Of a stretch of DNA of 64,000 nucleotides, positions 44,136 through 51,909 are shown piece by piece (position 1 is the first letter of the stretch; the number at the start of each line of letters is the position of its first letter). The notes beneath the pieces were generated by a model. It saw nothing but the letters and a program-made list of their open reading frames with translations, did no database searches and had not been told where the DNA came from. The stretch is from Verrucomicrobiota bacterium (GTDB taxonomy: Bacteria > Verrucomicrobiota > Verrucomicrobiia > Opitutales > Opitutaceae), in NCBI GenBank assembly GCA_018239845.1, contig JAFEGO010000090.1, positions 1-64,000 of the forward strand. Reading direction: 5' to 3'. Position numbers and translations under genes: made by a program.

Positions 44136-46067
44136 TCACTCCGCCGGGGCGGACGACGGCGGCACGGCAGCATGGATCGCCTCGTGGACGCGCGCCAGGA
44201 GCTGCTCGACGATGAAGGGCTTGTTCACCACCTGCGTGTTGAAGCCCGCGGACTCGCGCGCTTTTTTCAACAGGCCCGCCGAGGCCGCGCCGCTGACCAG
44301 CAGCATGCGCACGTCGGGGTTGATCCGCTTCAGCAGGCGCGACATCGCCACGCCGTCGAGATTGGGCATCTGGACATCGGATACCACCAGGCGCACGTCC
44401 TTGAAATGCTTGGCGTAGAGGATGAGCGCATCGATGCCGTCGGAGGCGACCTGCACCCGGTAGCCGTGGCGGGTGAGCACCGTCGCGACCATGTCGCGGA
44501 TCGTCTCCTCGTCATCGACGATCAAAATGACCTCGCCGTTGCCCCGGAGCTGCGCCGAGGGCTGCGTCGGACGCTGCTGGGTGCCACCGGTGTCGGCGGG
44601 CAGATAGAGGGTGAAGGCGGTCCCCTTCCCCACCTCCGTCCACAGCTGCAGGAAACCGCCGTGGTTGCTGACGATGCCCCGCACCGTCGAGAGGCCGAGC
44701 CCGGTGCCCTTGCCGATCTCCTTGGTGGTGAAAAACGGCTCCCACATGCGCGCGGCCACCTCGGGGGCGATGCCCGAGCCTGTGTCCTCGACGCGCAGCA
44801 TCAGGTACGAGCCGGGACGCCCGCCTTCGATCGCGCCCGCCGCCACCGGGCCCAGTTCGACGTTCTCCGCCTTCAGGCGGAGCGTGCCACCGGCGGGCAT
44901 CGCATCCCGGGCGTTGACGCAGAGGTTGAGCACGACCTGGTGGAGCTGCGTGGCGTTGGCGTTCACGGGCCACAGGCCCGCGGGGATATCCTCCTCCAGC
45001 CGGATGTCCTTGGGAAAGGTCGCGTGGATGAAGCGCACGAGGTCATGGAGCAGGTGCCGGACCTGCATGAGCTGCATCTCGCCGTTGACCCCGTGGGCAA
45101 AACCGAGGATCTGGCGCACCAGGCCGACCCCGCGCTCCGCGCTGCTTTCGAGCGTATCCAGCAATTTGATTCCTGCCGGGTCGGCGACGAAGTCGCGCAG
45201 CAGCGGCACGCCCATCGCGATGGGCGCGAGCATGTTGTTGAGGTCGTGGGCGATGCCGGCGGCGAGAAGGCCGATGTTTTCCAGCCGCTGCGCGCGGAGA
45301 AACTGCTCCTCGAGCCGCTTCCGCTCGGTGATGTCGCCGCAGATGCTGAGCCGCGCCTTGCGCTCGCCGCGCTCGTCGAGGATGCGCGACTGCCGCATCT
45401 CCAGCACCAGCGCGATGCCGCAGCGGTTGCGCACGTGGAGTTCGCCGCGCCATTCGTCCTGACGGGCCGCCTCGGCCCAGACGGCCTGGAACTTGGCCGC
45501 ATCGTCGCCCTCCGGAAATAGCTGCGCGATCAGGCGGCCCTGCGCCTCCGCCGCGGTCCATCTGAAGAGACGCGCGGCACCGCTGTTCCAGTAGATGATG
45601 CGGTCCTCCAGGTCGGTGATGAGGATGGCCTCGTGCGCCTGGTTGAGCATCTCGGCCTGCTCGCGGACCAGCCGCTCGGCCTGCTGGCGGACTTTCTGGC
45701 TGTCTCGGTCCCGCATGACGCGGTGGATCGCCGAGATGAGGCGTTTCATGCGGTCCTTCAGGATATAGTCCTGCGCGCCGCCTTGCAGGGCCTCGATCGC
45801 GCGGTCCTCGCCGATCGTGCCGGAGAGGAAGACAAACGGCGTGTCCGGCAGGCGCTGCCGGGCGAGCTTGAGGGCCTCCAGCCCGCTGTAGTGGGCCATG
45901 CTGAAATCCGACAGGATCAGGTCGCATGGCTCGCGGTCGGCCAGCTCGCGCGCAAAGGCCTCCTCCGTCGAGACCTGCCGCATCACGCAGTCAGGCCACT
46001 CCCCCGCGATCATCGCGTGGATCAGCTCGGCGTCAGCGGGATTGTCCTCGAGGTGGACGATTTTCAT
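44136..46067 (-). CDS. Soluble hybrid histidine kinase, REC-PAS-HisKA-HATPase-REC
   Basis: Cytosolic signalling protein of 643 residues with no membrane helix. N-terminal receiver ([11 protein letters not shown], acceptor D54 in [13 protein letters not shown]), PAS domain ([22 protein letters not shown], then [15 protein letters not shown]), HisKA with [13 protein letters not shown], ATPase domain ([31 protein letters not shown]), and a C-terminal receiver ([30 protein letters not shown]). Receiver-first kinases usually relay from another kinase. ATG 46067 begins the receiver exactly. It starts 17 bases after the YcaO-like gene, so both are probably co-transcribed. Confidence 0.9.
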
Positions 46068-46084
46068 ACGGGCGGCGGTCTTAG

Positions 46085-46972
46085 TTACCAAAAGAAATAG
46101 CGCTCGTCCGGCTCCAGGAATTCCCGCGACGGCGGCTGCAAGGCAAAGCGCCACACCGTGGCGTACTCGGACCACGGGCCCGGGATCTCGCAGTCGCACA
46201 CGACCTCGGGCCGCACGAGCGCGCGGCCGGCGGGCCGCGCCAGGCGTTCCCGGAAAAGCTGATACCCTTCCTCCGACGCAAAAAACAGACAGCGCCGCTC
46301 AAACAGGCCGGTGGGCAGCGTCTTGTCGCCCGCCACGAAACCGAGCCACCAGGCGCGCAGCACCATGTCGTGGCGCGCGAGCTCGACCACCGCGCGCTCG
46401 CAGGCCGCGCCGACGGACTCCTCCGCGCCGTACCCATAGACGTAGCCGCCCCACTGCGCGCGGGCGTAGGCCACGACGCTCACGCCGCCAAACGGCCCGT
46501 CGATCGCCACCGCGGATACGCCCGGCCAGTCGGTCGCGACCTCGTGGCCCTCGGCCAGCCCCTCCCACCAGGAAAGCAGACAATACCGCTCGACGGCCTC
46601 GAGCACGGCCTTGCGCCGCGCATCGCGCCGGAACATGCCGGGAAACGCCGACATGCCGTTCGACGACGGATCGACCTCAAAGCCAAACTCCCCCGCCCGG
46701 CTCGAGCGCACCGTCGCATAATAGGCCCAGCGCTCCAGCGCCTCGGAGATGGCCATATGCCGGGCGATGCCCGCCACCGCGTGCGAGCCCGTGCCATCGG
46801 CATTGCTATAAATTGTTTGCGGCTTTTTTTGCACCAACCCGGTTGTGAGGGTGGCGTTCGCCTGGATCATCTGCCTGCCGCGGACGGTGCAAACCCCCGT
46901 CTCGATGCGCGCAATCGGCCCGCCATGCGCCGCGAGCACATTACGATAGCGAAAAGCAGCTAAGCTTAACAT
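46085..46972 (-). CDS. Compact YcaO-like protein (putative ATP-dependent cyclodehydratase family)
   Basis: Protein of 295 residues, without signal peptide or helix. Three stretches align in order and spacing with YcaO ATP/Mg motifs: residues 59-84 GTGSHAV-AISEALERW (E77, E80, R81), residues 101-136 DPSSNGMSAF-KAVLEAVERYCLLSWW (E125, E128, R129), and residues 180-201 GYGAEESVGAACERAVVELAR (R193, E197). YcaO enzymes activate peptide amides with ATP to form azolines, amidines or thioamides. The Pro-rich tail of azoline-forming YcaOs is absent, and no partner E1-like or TfuA protein is seen. Smaller than usual (~400 or more). A short peptide gene ends 23 bases upstream. Family call is by motif reading only; the start could be a GTG 11 codons on. 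Confidence 0.62.
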   Translation of the reverse strand: MLSLAAFRYRNVLAAHGGPIARIETGVCTVRGRQMIQANATLTTGLVQKKPQTIYSNADGTGSHAVAGIARHMAISEALERWAYYATVRSSRAGEFGFEVDPSSNGMSAFPGMFRRDARRKAVLEAVERYCLLSWWEGLAEGHEVATDWPGVSAVAIDGPFGGVSVVAYARAQWGGYVYGYGAEESVGAACERAVVELARHDMVLRAWWLGFVAGDKTLPTGLFERRCLFFASEEGYQLFRERLARPAGRALVRPEVVCDCEIPGPWSEYATVWRFALQPPSREFLEPDERYFFW

Positions 46973-46980
46973 AGTTCGCA

Positions 46981-46995
46981 GTTAGCGTTGCTAAC
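46981..46995. promoter_or_regulatory. Hairpin between peptide and YcaO-like genes
   Basis: GTTAGC-GTT-GCTAAC: a perfect 6-bp stem with 3-base loop that fills most of the 23-base gap. It could stabilise the peptide message or limit read-through into the downstream gene. No T-run follows it. Confidence 0.4.
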
Positions 46996-47160
46996 TCAGG
47001 CCAAGGCACAGGGTTCGACACAGGGGGCCACGGGCACCCTAGCGCCATTTATAATCAGATGCTCGTCCAGCGGATCGAGACGAGAGGCTGCATGAGCAAA
47101 ACCCAGGGTAAACAGGAGTGTTGAAACGACTCCGAGGATCAGACGTTGGATGGTATTCAT
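46996..47160 (-). CDS. Small secreted-type peptide with CxxxC tail, next to YcaO
   Basis: Peptide of 54 residues from ATG 47160 (11 codons shorter than the longest frame). Residues 1-24 look like a Sec signal: R6, hydrophobic core LILGVVSTLLFTLGF, and a cleavage motif AHA before A25. The predicted 30-residue mature part is acidic to neutral (SRLDPLDEHLIINGARVPVA) and ends PCVEPCALA, with cysteines at 47 and 51. It sits 23 bases upstream of the YcaO-like gene, same strand, so it may be its substrate or simply a small lipoprotein-like or secreted factor. Lower GC than neighbours. Coding status rests on signal-peptide shape and position; no homologue is known to me. Confidence 0.5.
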   Translation of the reverse strand: MNTIQRLILGVVSTLLFTLGFAHAASRLDPLDEHLIINGARVPVAPCVEPCALA

Positions 47161-47207
47161 AACGCCGATAACATCGGGTGGACTTTTGGCCATCCGCCAT
47201 AGTGCAA

Positions 47208-47227
47208 ACTACCGGAAATCCGGTAGT
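47208..47227. promoter_or_regulatory. 20-bp palindrome between divergent peptide/YcaO and sensor kinase units
   Basis: ACTACCGG-AAAT-CCGGTAGT: perfect 8-bp arms with a 4-base centre. It lies 48 bases upstream of the peptide start and 61 upstream of the kinase start, in the middle of the 128-base divergent gap. Good operator candidate for both units; the NarL-type regulator at 51114-51776 could be the binder. Confidence 0.6.
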
Positions 47228-47288
47228 CCGCCCTTTCATCAAATTCGCATCGCCATCCTAGGGAAATCTGCCCGCAATCGCGTGCATC

Positions 47289-49364
47289 ATGACCCGATCG
47301 GTCCTAACGTACTCAACAGCCCGCACCTTACTGCGGGCCTTGATGTTGTTAACCGTCGTCAACCTCGCCGCCAGAATACACGCAGCTTCACCCGGTTACC
47401 CGCTCGTCACCGCATTCTCATTGCACGATATTGGCGGCGATGCCACGACCCGATGCTGGTCTGCAGTGCAGGATCTCGACGGCGTCATGCATTTCGGCCA
47501 CGACGGCATTGTTCACTACGACGGTACCCATTGGAGCATGACACCCGTGCCCGGAGTCTATGCCCTGCGCGGCCTCGATGTGGGCGCCGACGGTCGCCTC
47601 TGGTATGCAGGAAACGGCGACATTGGTTGGCTCGCTCGCGACGGACCGGGCCGCTGGAAACCTCACTCCCTGCGCAGCCAACTGTCAGGGGAAGAAAGTA
47701 ATTTGGGTGAAGTCTGGCAGGTTCTGGCCGAAGGCAATGAGGCGGTCTTTGTGACTGAAGACCGCGTGCTGCGCTGGGACGGCTCGGCCTTCCGCAGCTG
47801 GTATCTGCCCGGGGGCCGTCGCATCGTGGCATCGCGCTGCGGCGGGATCATCTACGTTCATCACGAGTCAACCGGGCTGTACGCCCTCACGCCCGACGGG
47901 CCCAAGCTGGTGATCCCCGCCTCCCTGCTGCATGAGGCGTTCGTGTACGGCATGGAACTTCTCGACCGTGGCTGGCTTCTTGTGACCTCGAAGGGATTTT
48001 TTACTTTTGCAGATGGCCGATTGACTCCGATGGGCCCCGAGGTTTCCAAATACGTCAGTGCCTCCTCATTGGTCGGAGTGACCCGCCTGAATGATGGACG
48101 TTTTGTCTTGGGCACGTATCGCGGAGGCCTCGTCGTCGTGCGGCGCGATGGTAGCCTCGACCGCATTTTGACCGAGCAGGATGGCCTGCCTACGCGGGTG
48201 ATATATTCGGTATTTGCCGATCGTGAAGGTGGCTTATGGGCCACGTCGCCCTCACATATATTCCACGTTGCCCTCAATTCGCCTTCGGCAGTTTTTACCG
48301 AACACGCCGGCTTGCCCAAGCTGCCCGTGCACAGCCTGGCCCGGCAAGACGGACGCTTGTTTGCCGCTACGGACAACGGGGTGTACTCGTTGCAGGACGA
48401 CGGACTGCATTTCCTGCCCGTTGACGGCCTGAATCACCGCGCGGAACTCATGCAATCCTCCGGGCACGGTCTGCTGCTCACGGATCACCGCTACGTGAAT
48501 CTTTTCGTTCCGACATCAGGTCTCCGCAGGCTTTGCTCCACTCAGCTTGGCGCCCAGACGCTATTGTCCTCCTCGAATCAGCCTGGGCAGGTGATACTTT
48601 CAAGCGGACGGGAAATCATCCTCATCGAGGACGAGAACCGCTCTCGAGTACTGGTGAAAAACCTGCCAGACATTCCCACGTCCATCGCCGAAGACGCAAC
48701 CGGCGGGCTCTGGATCGGCACGTCGTTGAACGGCCTTCTTTATGCCCGACCGGAGCCTAGATCTACGGTCGAGGCCTTGCCCGCCGCTGGTCTCCATGGT
48801 CTGCCATCTGGCGATGGCCAATCCATGGTCGTCGCCACCACGCACGGCGATATCATCGCTATTGAGCCAGGCGCTGCTTCGTTCCTACGACACAACACTA
48901 ACAATTTCGAACCTGTTGTGGATTTCCCCAAGCGCAATGTTTCCGTCATGCCTTCGGCCTCGGAAGACGGATCAGTGTGGATAATCCATTCCAGCTCCGG
49001 GAGCCTGCCTGCCACTCTCGCTCGCATAGCCTTGATCGGCAACCACGCCGTATGGCAGCCGCATGCTGCGGAAGGTTTGGCCGCCATTGGCGAGCCACAG
49101 TCTCTGCTAACTGAAGCCATGCCCAATCGAGGCACAGTGGTCTGGGTTGGCGGTACCGACGGGATTCTGCGCAATACCCTTGGACCAAGCCTCTTGCTCC
49201 TGCGCCGCACGCCCCGCTACTCCACGCCTTTGCCCGCCACGCCGAACACTCGGAGCTCGATCCCATCACCGGCACCCTGCCCTACGCCACCGGCTCGGTC
49301 GTCTTCGAGTTCGCCGCGCCGGAATTCTCCGGCTACTCCACGCTGCGGCTGGAGACCCGCATGA
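47289..49364 (+). CDS. Propeller sensor part of a hybrid kinase, frame broken near 49200
   Basis: N-terminal part of a two-component regulator with a periplasmic beta-propeller. Signal peptide (LLRALMLLTVVNLAARIHA), then repeated propeller blades such as FGHDGIVHYDGTHWS, EDRVLRWDGSAFRSW, LFAATDNGVYSLQDDG and GGLWIGTSLNGLLYA. Up to WVGGTDGILRNTLGPSLLLLR (about 49205) it reads as protein; the final ~53 residues are low-complexity Ser/Pro/Arg, a wrong-frame signature. In another frame the same DNA reads LPYATGSVVFEFAAPEFSGY, the Y_Y_Y domain that should follow. One base seems to be missing at about 49190-49215. Base composition upstream of the break is visibly lower in GC than downstream. Confidence 0.7.
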   Translation: MTRSVLTYSTARTLLRALMLLTVVNLAARIHAASPGYPLVTAFSLHDIGGDATTRCWSAVQDLDGVMHFGHDGIVHYDGTHWSMTPVPGVYALRGLDVGADGRLWYAGNGDIGWLARDGPGRWKPHSLRSQLSGEESNLGEVWQVLAEGNEAVFVTEDRVLRWDGSAFRSWYLPGGRRIVASRCGGIIYVHHESTGLYALTPDGPKLVIPASLLHEAFVYGMELLDRGWLLVTSKGFFTFADGRLTPMGPEVSKYVSASSLVGVTRLNDGRFVLGTYRGGLVVVRRDGSLDRILTEQDGLPTRVIYSVFADREGGLWATSPSHIFHVALNSPSAVFTEHAGLPKLPVHSLARQDGRLFAATDNGVYSLQDDGLHFLPVDGLNHRAELMQSSGHGLLLTDHRYVNLFVPTSGLRRLCSTQLGAQTLLSSSNQPGQVILSSGREIILIEDENRSRVLVKNLPDIPTSIAEDATGGLWIGTSLNGLLYARPEPRSTVEALPAAGLHGLPSGDGQSMVVATTHGDIIAIEPGAASFLRHNTNNFEPVVDFPKRNVSVMPSASEDGSVWIIHSSSGSLPATLARIALIGNHAVWQPHAAEGLAAIGEPQSLLTEAMPNRGTVVWVGGTDGILRNTLGPSLLLLRRTPRYSTPLPATPNTRSSIPSPAPCPTPPARSSSSSPRRNSPATPRCGWRPA

Positions 49365-51160
49365 GCGGCGTCGATAACGACTGGGTTCCCGCCGACCCCG
49401 GCGGGCGGCGCGTGTTTACCGCGATGCGCGAGGGCTCCTATCTTTTCCAGGTCCGCGCGGTCGCGGAGACGGGCCGGGCGAGCGAGCCGACGGGGTTCCA
49501 TTTCGAGATCGCCCCGCCTTGGTGGCGCTCCACGCCGGCCGCCCTCGCCGCCCTGTTCCTCGGCGCCGGGGTCATCTACGGGGTCTTCCGCTATCGCGAG
49601 CATACCCTGCGCCGCCGCAATGCCGAGCTGGAGGAGAAGGTCCGCACCCGCACCGTCGAGCTCGAGCTGGCCAGCGCGGCCAAGACCCAGTTCGTGGCCA
49701 ACATGAGCCACGATATCCGCAATCCCCTCAACGGCATCGTCGGCCTCACCCTCGCCCTCGACGACACGCCGCTCGACGCGCGCCAGCGCGAGCTCGTCTC
49801 CACCCTGCGCGAGTGCACCGCCTACCTCGCGACCCTGGTGGACGACGTGCTCGACTTCGCCAGCATCGAGGCCGGCCGGGTGGAGCTGCGGCCCGGCCCC
49901 TTTGCCCCGGCCGAGCTGTTGCGCTCGATCGCCGCCACGCTCCGGGCGGAGGTGGCGCAGTCGGGCGCGGCGTTCGTCATCGAGACCTCGCCCAATCTCC
50001 CCGCGACGGTCACCGGCGACGCCGGCCGGATCCAGCAGATCCTGATCAACTACGCCGGCAACGCCCTGAAATACGCCGGCGGCCGCATCGTTCTCTCCGC
50101 CCACGTCCCGCCGGGCGCACCCGGGGAGATCGAGTTTGCCGTGACCGATTCCGGCCCCGGCATCAGCGAGGCCGACCAGGCCCGCCTGTTCTCCAAGTTC
50201 ACCCGCCTCGCCCAGCAGCCCGGCGCGCAGATCGAGGGCACCGGTCTCGGCCTCGCTTCCTGCAAGCTCCTGGCCGACCTCATGGACGGCTCCGTCGGCG
50301 TCGAGAGCCAGCCCGGCCAGGGGTCGCGCTTCACGCTCCGGCTCCCGCTGGCCGCGGCGGTGGAGGCTCCCCTGCTCCCGGTTGCCACCGCGACCCTGCC
50401 CCCGGCGACCGTCCTCCTCGTCGAGGATACGGATTACAACGCCTGGGCGGCCAACGCCGTGCTCGCGAAGCTCGGGCTCACCGCCACCCGCGCGCACACC
50501 GGCGCCGAGGCCCTCGAACTCTTCGCCACCCAGCGCTTCAACATCGTGCTCCTCGACCGCAACCTGCCCGACCTCGACGGCACCGAGGTCGCGCGGCGCA
50601 TGCGCGCCCTGGAGGAAAACGGCCAGCATGCCCTGCTCCTCGCCGTCACGGCCTACTGTACGGCCGAGGACCGCGAACTCTGCCTCAAGTCGGGCATGGA
50701 TGCCTTCGTCGGCAAGCCCCTCACGCCGGAGAAGCTCCGCCGCGCGCTCCTCGGCACCGGGCGCCAGCTCCTCGCCGCGGCCTCCGTGCAGGAGCCGCCC
50801 GGGCTGCGCAGCCCCGCCTTCGACCTCACCTTGCTCGGCTACCTCTCCGACGGCACCCCGCAGGGGCTGGAGGCCCAGGTGGCGCGTTTCCTCGGCGTCC
50901 TCGCCGAGGCCGCGCAGCAGCTTCAGGTCAGCGCCGCGGACAATGACTTCCACGCTCTGGCCGACACGGCGCACGGCGTGCTTTCCCAGGCCCGGCTCAT
51001 CGGCTGCACCGCGCTCAGCGAGGCGGCGGTGGATCTCGAGCAGGCCGCCCGTGCCAAGCGGCCCGATGCCGTCGGCGAACTCCTCGCGCGCGTGCGCGTC
51101 GAGATCGACGTCGTCACGGCAGCATTGCGCCATCCCCCCCGCGCCCTGAACTCAGAGTGA
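49361..51160 (+). CDS. Hybrid kinase part: Y_Y_Y end, membrane helix, HisKA, HATPase, REC, Hpt-like
   Basis: Downstream part of the broken kinase, 599 residues if started at ATG 49361, which overlaps the stop of the first part as ATGA. The frame is open upstream to at least ~49202 and encodes the rest of the Y_Y_Y domain. Then one membrane helix (AALAALFLGAGVIYGVF), a coiled coil, HisKA (FVANMSHDIRNPLNGI), ATPase domain (NYAGNALKYA, VTDSGPGIS, GTGLGLASCKLL), a receiver (LVEDTDYNA, LLDRNLPDLDG, GKPL) and an Hpt-like end. The Hpt motif reads AHGVLSQARL instead of HxLKGxA. A fused gene would span 47289-51160. Confidence 0.8.
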   Translation: MSGVDNDWVPADPGGRRVFTAMREGSYLFQVRAVAETGRASEPTGFHFEIAPPWWRSTPAALAALFLGAGVIYGVFRYREHTLRRRNAELEEKVRTRTVELELASAAKTQFVANMSHDIRNPLNGIVGLTLALDDTPLDARQRELVSTLRECTAYLATLVDDVLDFASIEAGRVELRPGPFAPAELLRSIAATLRAEVAQSGAAFVIETSPNLPATVTGDAGRIQQILINYAGNALKYAGGRIVLSAHVPPGAPGEIEFAVTDSGPGISEADQARLFSKFTRLAQQPGAQIEGTGLGLASCKLLADLMDGSVGVESQPGQGSRFTLRLPLAAAVEAPLLPVATATLPPATVLLVEDTDYNAWAANAVLAKLGLTATRAHTGAEALELFATQRFNIVLLDRNLPDLDGTEVARRMRALEENGQHALLLAVTAYCTAEDRELCLKSGMDAFVGKPLTPEKLRRALLGTGRQLLAAASVQEPPGLRSPAFDLTLLGYLSDGTPQGLEAQVARFLGVLAEAAQQLQVSAADNDFHALADTAHGVLSQARLIGCTALSEAAVDLEQAARAKRPDAVGELLARVRVEIDVVTAALRHPPRALNSE

Positions 51161-51776
51161 AGCCGTGCTCCACGGCGTAGCGCACGAGCTGGGTGTGGGT
51201 CTTGAGGCCGAGCTTGTTCATGATGTTGAAGCGGTGTTTCTCCGCCGTGCCGCGCGAGATCTGCAGCCGCTCCGCGATCTCGGCGTCCGTCAGCGGCGCG
51301 CCGATCAGCGCGAGCGTGGCGCACTCGCGGTCGGACAGCATCTTGTCGAAGGAAAACGGATCCTCGATCCGCGCCGCCTTCACCTGGCGGAAGGCCTCGG
51401 AGAAATACGTCTGCCCCGCGATCACCGCCGCGATCGCCTGCTTCAGGGAGGAGACCGCGCTGGTGTTCTTGTCCACGAAGCCCTGCACCCGCGCCCGCTC
51501 GACGCGAAACACCGTGTGGTTGTCGCAGTGCGAGGAGAGGATGAGGATGCGCTGCTCCGGCCGCGCATGGCGCAGCGCCGCCACCACGCCAAAGCCGTCC
51601 AGCCCCGGCAGGTGCAGGTCGAGCAGCACCAGGTCCGGCTGGGTCTCGATCACCAGCGGCACCGCGCTCCGCCCGTCCCCCGCTTCGCCGGCCACGACCA
51701 GCCCGAGATCCTCCGCGCAGACCTTGCGCAGCACTTCGCGGAACATCAGGTGGTCTTCGACAATGACAACTTTCAC
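51114..51776 (-). CDS. NarL/LuxR-type response regulator
   Basis: Response regulator of 220 residues from GTG 51776. Receiver: VIVEDHLMFREVLRKV, acceptor D53 in LVLLDLHLPGLDGFG, and GFVDKNTSA in the lysine loop. LuxR-type DNA-binding domain: LSDRECATLALIGAPLTDAEIAERLQISRGTAEKHRFNIMNKLGLKTHTQLV. It converges on the hybrid kinase and overlaps its 3' end by 47 bases. Likely partner of that kinase, or of the soluble hybrid kinase, as both lack their own DNA-binding domain. Confidence 0.9.
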   Translation of the reverse strand: MKVVIVEDHLMFREVLRKVCAEDLGLVVAGEAGDGRSAVPLVIETQPDLVLLDLHLPGLDGFGVVAALRHARPEQRILILSSHCDNHTVFRVERARVQGFVDKNTSAVSSLKQAIAAVIAGQTYFSEAFRQVKAARIEDPFSFDKMLSDRECATLALIGAPLTDAEIAERLQISRGTAEKHRFNIMNKLGLKTHTQLVRYAVEHGFTLSSGRGGDGAMLP

Positions 51777-51830
51777 GGCTGCACGATGAGCCCTATTTTT
51801 TCCGGCGCAAGATTGCCGCGTGCCATCAAC

Positions 51831-51847
51831 GCCCCCGAATTGGGGGC
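51831..51847. repeat. GC-rich inverted repeat upstream of the response regulator
   Basis: GCCCCC-GAATT-GGGGGC, 6-bp arms, 55 bases upstream of the regulator start. Possibly part of the regulator's control region or the base of the adjacent terminator; no T-run directly follows on either strand. Confidence 0.35.
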
Positions 51848-51850
51848 CCC

Positions 51851-51909
51851 TGAAAAAACAAACCGCGCCTGGCATCCCGGCGTGACAATCACGCGGGCGC
51901 CGGCGCGGT
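51851..51909 (-). terminator. Terminator of the BON-domain gene
   Basis: On the minus strand an 8-bp outer stem (51862-51869 with 51902-51909, ACCGCGCC/GGCGCGGT) encloses an inner stem CGTGA-CAA-TCACG (51881-51893) and is followed by TTTGTTTTTT. It begins 22 bases after the BON gene stop. Confidence 0.75.

Follow-up and report, generated by a model that had tools for sequence, protein, structure and literature searches.

A peptide gene, a YcaO gene and a divergent kinase

In the window, as we call the whole 64,000-nucleotide stretch of Opitutaceae DNA analyzed here, the gene of a short precursor-like peptide lies upstream of the gene of a stand-alone YcaO-family protein, with exactly 23 nt between the peptide frame and the YcaO ATG, and a hybrid histidine kinase is encoded divergently on the other side of a palindrome that is a candidate operator (Table 1). 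A preliminary description of this DNA had reported a 54-residue peptide ending 23 bases before a 295-residue frame on the minus strand, and both frames are as it described them. The stretch that it delimited, 46085-47160, holds real frames but covers only part of a conserved unit that spans about 44136 to 51875. Its pairing of peptide and YcaO is borne out by what follows, but it overlooked the divergent kinase, the LuxR-type regulator, the palindrome, and the organization of the peptide into a leader and a hypervariable tail, with tandem cores in some relatives. The PAS hybrid kinase at the other end of the unit is kept in only part of the relatives and is probably an accessory or operon member.

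Table 1. Features of the conserved unit, in positions of the window
Feature	Position	Strand	Remarks
PAS hybrid histidine kinase (REC-PAS-HisKA-HATPase-REC)	44136..46067	minus	17 nt downstream of the YcaO stop
YcaO-family protein, stand-alone, 295 aa	46085..46972	minus	ATG 46972, stop 46085-46087
Precursor-like peptide, 54 aa, MNTIQRLILGVVSTLLFTLGFAHAASRLDPLDEHLIINGARVPVAPCVEPCALA	46996..47160	minus	ATG 47160, stop 46996-46998
Palindrome ACTACCGGAAATCCGGTAGT, core TACCGGAAATCCGGTA at 47210-47225	47208..47227	none	candidate operator
Hybrid histidine kinase, sensor part	47289..49364	plus	signal peptide and Reg_prop beta-propellers; first ORF of frame-broken gene
Same kinase gene, second ORF	49361..51160	plus	TM, HisKA, HATPase_c, receiver, Hpt
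Response regulator	51114..51875	minus	convergent with the kinase; a relative's orthologue is REC plus GerE/LuxR DNA-binding domain

The YcaO-family protein and its peptide

The 295-residue protein is a genuine stand-alone YcaO, though a divergent one. Its match to PF02624 scores 27.0 bits in hmmscan against a gathering cut-off of 25.7, and 16 of 20 homologs match the family independently (E<=0.01). A six-frame PF02624 search of its own genome missed the gene, the protein hmmscan score being barely above the cut-off, and neither phmmer nor profile searches against the sequences of the PDB returned a match to the protein, so its kinship to solved YcaOs is visible by Pfam and fold alone. The AlphaFold2 model (20 homologs; pLDDT 91.3, pTM 0.88) has E. 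coli YcaO and McbD as its two best Foldseek matches, and on the DALI-like scale of VIA its Z scores are 17.4 to 6gos, 16.6 to 6ci7, 16.4 to 4v1t, and 12.3 to 4q86. The range from Z 17.4 to 9.8 is occupied by McbD, Methanopyrus YcaO, a LynD-type heterocyclase, a YcaO peptidase, Methanocaldococcus YcaO, E. coli YcaO, and TruD. No PDB structure other than YcaOs and cyclodehydratases scores above Z 6.2, the value of the first unrelated one. The profile search and structure comparison proposed in the preliminary description have thus returned YcaOs, as it had supposed, and the three blocks that it took for YcaO-like motifs (ALERW, AVERY, ERAVVE) are indeed such motifs, since SEALERW, LEAVERY, and ERAVVEL align with GEYFERL, SNGMSAG...SEVFERY, and ALERTVTEL of E. 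coli YcaO. A direct hhalign comparison with the single E. coli sequence is weak (probability 15%, E 0.0017) and aligns the correct motifs.

E77/E80/R81, E125/E128/R129, and E197 of the window's protein align with E75/E78/R79, E199/E202/R203, and E290 of E. coli YcaO, positions that we take to be the Mg/ATP site, and these Glu/Arg residues are retained in 79-81 of 81 homologs. Published work in E. coli has made use of an E202A variant (PMC13063428). Two residues of the E. coli protein, K61 (the GKG lysine) and S184, are without counterpart, the Opitutales family having T/S and mostly A there, and because these two positions are changed, the nucleotide contacts may differ. ATP-dependent backbone modification is the activity that we would predict. 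That the protein is instead a non-enzymatic, leader-binding chaperone or adaptor for an unmodified signal seems to us very improbable given the retention of the Glu/Arg site in 79-81 of 81 homologs, even if the change of the K61 and S184 positions across the whole family would suit such a role, as would one homolog (locus L115) that has lost E80, E128, and E197 and still keeps a two-core peptide. The peptide of this locus (L115 / L015) has two copies of AWEQPPGVPP[C/R]PGGGIIIK, and its YcaO is a possible case of natural loss of catalysis.

The protein also appears to be without the usual partners, as the preliminary description had held: TfuA (PF07812) has no match in seven cassette-bearing genomes, and the conserved neighbors in the cluster include no E1-like/RRE partner and no dehydrogenase. 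A PqqD-type RRE occurs in two of the seven genomes, remote from the cluster, and nitroreductases are likewise remote.

YcaO homologs are found in 69 of 200 family genomes and in 28 of 49 genera, among them the named isolates Coraliomargarita sp. SDUM461004 and Cerasicoccus strains, and in a sample of the phylum they are confined to the order Opitutales (14/388). They are 36-69% identical to the window's protein, with the conserved peptide upstream; a locus search with the single YcaO protein found nothing, and the same search with an alignment found 80 loci. A leader HMM, which matches the window's peptide at E 3.7e-18 as the sole copy in its genome, finds a related leader peptide directly 5' of the YcaO gene in 73 of 81 loci, and five more leader peptides are recognizable by eye (L059, L115, L116, L118, L119). 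Three YcaO loci are left without a peptide; two of them start at contig ends (L103, L117) and the third has a degenerate YcaO (L104). The leader peptide is therefore found 5' of YcaO at all testable Opitutales loci except one, and the pairing anticipated in the preliminary description, which had called for a neighborhood survey, is conserved in relatives. In a separate profile search, the number of peptide copies equaled the number of YcaO copies (1/1 in G000, 1/1 in G016, and 2/2 in G023), and the peptide was absent from nine genomes without an intact YcaO. That the peptide is the YcaO substrate is strongly implied. In some relatives the arrangement is more elaborate: at L079, L082, and L077, two different leader peptides stand in tandem 5' of a single YcaO, the second with a Cys-poor tail, and at L073 a further, short leader peptide is encoded some 1 kb past the start of the YcaO gene.

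The window's peptide has a conserved hydrophobic leader to about A25, followed by ..LDP and a variable tail that ends in APCVEPCALA. Across the family, the leader has fixed positions at G20 (97%), A25 (96%), and D29 (95%), after which conservation ends, and where the YcaOs are about 90% identical the leaders are still 64% identical and the tails 35%. The tails contain 11% Pro and 6% Cys, with "PC" in 47 of 73 peptides. Six peptides have tandem cores, with two to five repeats in the tail, an arrangement that occurs in 0 of 1480 shuffled tails; examples are five copies of KSSAFSELPCQFS in L110, three of AFTETVCNF in L098, and three of DTCTWPCE in L120. Multi-core precursors of RiPPs or pheromones are built in this way. 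A short precursor, a conserved leader, a variable core, and an adjoining modifying enzyme are the general marks of a RiPP, and they are found together here.

The same tails invite two readings in which the product acts on something other than a cognate receptor. YcaO RiPPs are often antibacterial, and core diversification of this kind is compatible with an arms race, so a narrow-spectrum modified bacteriocin under two-component control might be envisaged; we regard this as quite unlikely, as the cluster has no conserved gene for immunity, a dedicated ABC exporter, or a protease. Somewhat less remote, yet still unlikely, is a YcaO-modified exported peptide that binds a metal such as copper or serves in stress, a counterpart of the bufferins made with MNIO enzymes, with the kinase and regulator sensing metal or envelope state rather than the peptide. 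C..PC and PC motifs are frequent, and copper-binding, Sec-exported, Cys-modified RiPP precursors are known (PMC12452194), but the cores are hypervariable among close relatives, some have a single Cys (L098, L110) or none (L071, L073), and no metal transporter or chaperone is among the conserved neighbors.

Export would proceed by Sec. The preliminary description had been uneasy about a Sec signal on the substrate of a cytosolic enzyme, a worry that is eased by the bufferins, a group of RiPPs with precursors that pass through the Sec machinery and have a Sec signal peptide instead of the typical leader (PMC12452194). A clean AxA site is missing in several lineages, and the cassette showed no protease or transporter of its own. 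The Cerasicoccus precursors (L116, L118, L119) are only 39 aa long, with a tail of the type KA[PY]PT[YWF]P[TC]EV, and show no clear Sec signal.

The sensor kinase, the regulator and the palindrome

Of 76 testable loci, 73 have the divergent hybrid kinase beside the peptide-YcaO pair, and in 51 of 59 the kinase is followed by the regulator, in which a receiver is joined to a LuxR-type DNA-binding domain; peptide quorum-sensing systems are likewise recognized by a linked sensor kinase and response regulator. The kinase comprises Reg_prop propellers, Y_Y_Y, HisKA, HATPase_c, and receiver domains, plus Hpt in the window's copy. In the window the gene shifts frame at about 49181-49193, although it is one ORF in nearly all relatives; L057 and L058 break at a comparable place. 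This may be a real inactivation or a sequencing error, and with the gene frame-broken near 49185, the window's strain could be blind to the signal, or else the assembly could be in error.

The model of the sensor (pLDDT 88.8) has the double-propeller periplasmic domain of BT4663 as its best structural match (4a2l, Z 29.6, 665 residues). This closest solved sensor responds to heparin/heparan sulphate, so a glycan ligand is possible for the kinase as well. The locus might accordingly combine two separate functions that have a divergent promoter region in common: the pair that modifies the peptide, and a kinase that senses a glycan. The match to BT4663 speaks for this, as does a comparison of core and sensor that gave no clear sign of coevolution (partial r 0.09, p 0.09), the core having tracked YcaO distance better; we nevertheless find the idea unlikely in view of a linkage that persists in 73 of 76 loci, even where the YcaOs are only 36-40% identical. 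We infer instead that the peptide is the ligand of the hybrid kinase. A single clade of YcaO-linked kinases had been expected, and a FastTree phylogeny of the kinase domain shows none that is exclusive, which counts against the signalling reading. The flanks of sampled orphan propeller kinases contain no leader peptide.

The palindrome, TACC-N8-GGTA, stands 49 nt before the ATG of the peptide and 63 nt before that of the kinase. Of 73 peptides, 26 have a 16-nt TAC..GTA palindrome in the 140 nt before them, where about 0.02 would be expected (0.0003 per search interval, from 2 occurrences in 830 kb of flanks). In the window's clade it stands 47-49 nt from the peptide; a second clade, with the spacer TTTTAAAA, has it at about 71 nt. 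The window's genome contains six exact copies and none of the reversed pattern. Among the family genomes, YcaO is present in 11 of 15 with the palindrome versus 57 of 185 without it (Fisher p 0.0015, uncorrected for relatedness), and the palindrome is present without YcaO in four genomes.

Other copies point to a candidate regulon of regulators, secreted proteins, a glycosyltransferase/FabA-ACP cluster, and CheW, a composition that again argues against a metal or stress peptide. In the window's genome, the palindrome lies 53 and 60 nt upstream of the genes of two paralogous secreted proteins of about 205 aa that belong to no Pfam family (L154:4281-4898 and L156:7153-7785), a homolog of which in G175 (L204) has it too. 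A further LuxR-type regulator has it upstream as well, as do several receiver proteins and PAS kinases of relatives. At L157:4087-8057 in the window's genome it is located between a divergent glycosyltransferase gene and a FabA-like/acyl-carrier gene, with a ketosynthase-like ORF beyond the latter, possibly a regulated biosynthetic cluster. One further copy in this genome falls just past the 3' end of a gene that resembles a REP-associated (RAYT-like) transposase gene (L155:7946-8942). The nearby RAYT-like gene raised the question of whether the palindrome is a REP element, which is less likely given that it keeps a fixed spacing in promoters, is present in few copies, and has clade-specific variants in which the symmetry is preserved. 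The cluster's LuxR-type regulator would be the protein that binds it, and its place in the promoter is suggestive of autoinduction by an extracellular peptide.

A probable peptide-signalling cassette and its relation to known systems

A variable peptide and its modifying enzyme beside a sensor kinase and a DNA-binding partner have the look of cell signalling, and on balance we favor the reading of precursor, YcaO, sensor, and regulator as a peptide-signalling cassette of the Opitutales; the conserved cassette lends support to the modified signalling peptide guessed at in the preliminary description. The adjacent stand-alone YcaO would recognize the conserved N-terminal segment of the precursor and use ATP to alter the backbone of its Cys/Pro-rich C-terminal core, for which a thiazoline at Pro-Cys is our guess at the simplest chemistry. 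The peptide would be exported by Sec and cut near the A/LDP junction, so reaching the periplasm or the medium, where the periplasmic double propeller of the divergent hybrid kinase could sense it. Phosphate would pass from the kinase to the LuxR-type regulator, which in turn would bind TACC-N8-GGTA before the peptide gene, closing an autoinductory loop, and at other genomic sites. Whether this amounts to Gram-negative peptide quorum sensing, in which a YcaO-modified, Sec-exported, hypervariable, and sometimes multi-core pheromone is read by a double-propeller hybrid kinase and a LuxR-type regulator, is a more demanding proposition that we advance only tentatively.

If true, the cassette would represent a new class of peptide-based signalling for Gram-negative bacteria and give YcaO chemistry a role in cell-cell signalling. 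Direct tests would also become possible on stand-alone YcaOs that are compact and diverse and have short natural substrates, and double-propeller hybrid kinases, which are known for glycan sensing, would gain a peptide ligand. A survey of the open-licence literature returned no description of YcaO in Verrucomicrobia, of quorum sensing in Opitutaceae, or of YcaO signalling.

The cassette shares parts with several known systems. With the YcaO superfamily (PF02624; McbD, LynD/TruD, Methanopyrus, and E. coli YcaO) it has in common the fold and the Mg/ATP Glu/Arg residues, but its YcaO has only 295 aa and 14-18% identity, a changed GKG lysine and S184, and an FFW C-terminus. Unlike McbD and LynD it has neither an E1-like partner nor a fused leader-binding domain, and it differs from the YcaO-TfuA thioamidating pair in that the seven cassette genomes are without TfuA. 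Closer are the RiPPs of stand-alone YcaOs, bottromycin and streptamidine, with an unfused YcaO and a small adjacent precursor; the bottromycin YcaOs act without a partner, and in relatives of streptamidine the precursor motifs occur one to three times (PMC8442711). These clusters have extra tailoring or transport genes, whereas the Opitutales have a sensor kinase, a regulator, and a signal-like precursor leader. Bufferins resemble the cassette in their Cys-containing precursor, encoded 5' of the enzyme gene (PMC12452194), but use the MNIO enzyme family, while the cassette has a YcaO, no MNIO partner, a kinase and regulator, and variable cores.

The logic of precursor, modifying enzyme, kinase, and regulator is that of Agr and ComQXPA. 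Agr has a precursor, a modifying enzyme, a sensor kinase, and a response regulator, and the same set makes up ComQXPA (PMC4008528). Both are Gram-positive systems with AgrB or ComQ (an isoprenyl transferase) and a polytopic receptor, in place of which the cassette has a YcaO and a periplasmic double propeller. That sensor fold and the hybrid kinase layout are shared with the Bacteroides hybrid two-component systems (BT4663, BT4673, BT3049), although the cassette has a separate LuxR-type regulator and is linked to peptide and YcaO rather than to polysaccharide-utilisation genes. As a YcaO-RiPP, then, the cassette would be a variant of an established type; as modified-peptide signalling in a Gram-negative lineage, it would be new.
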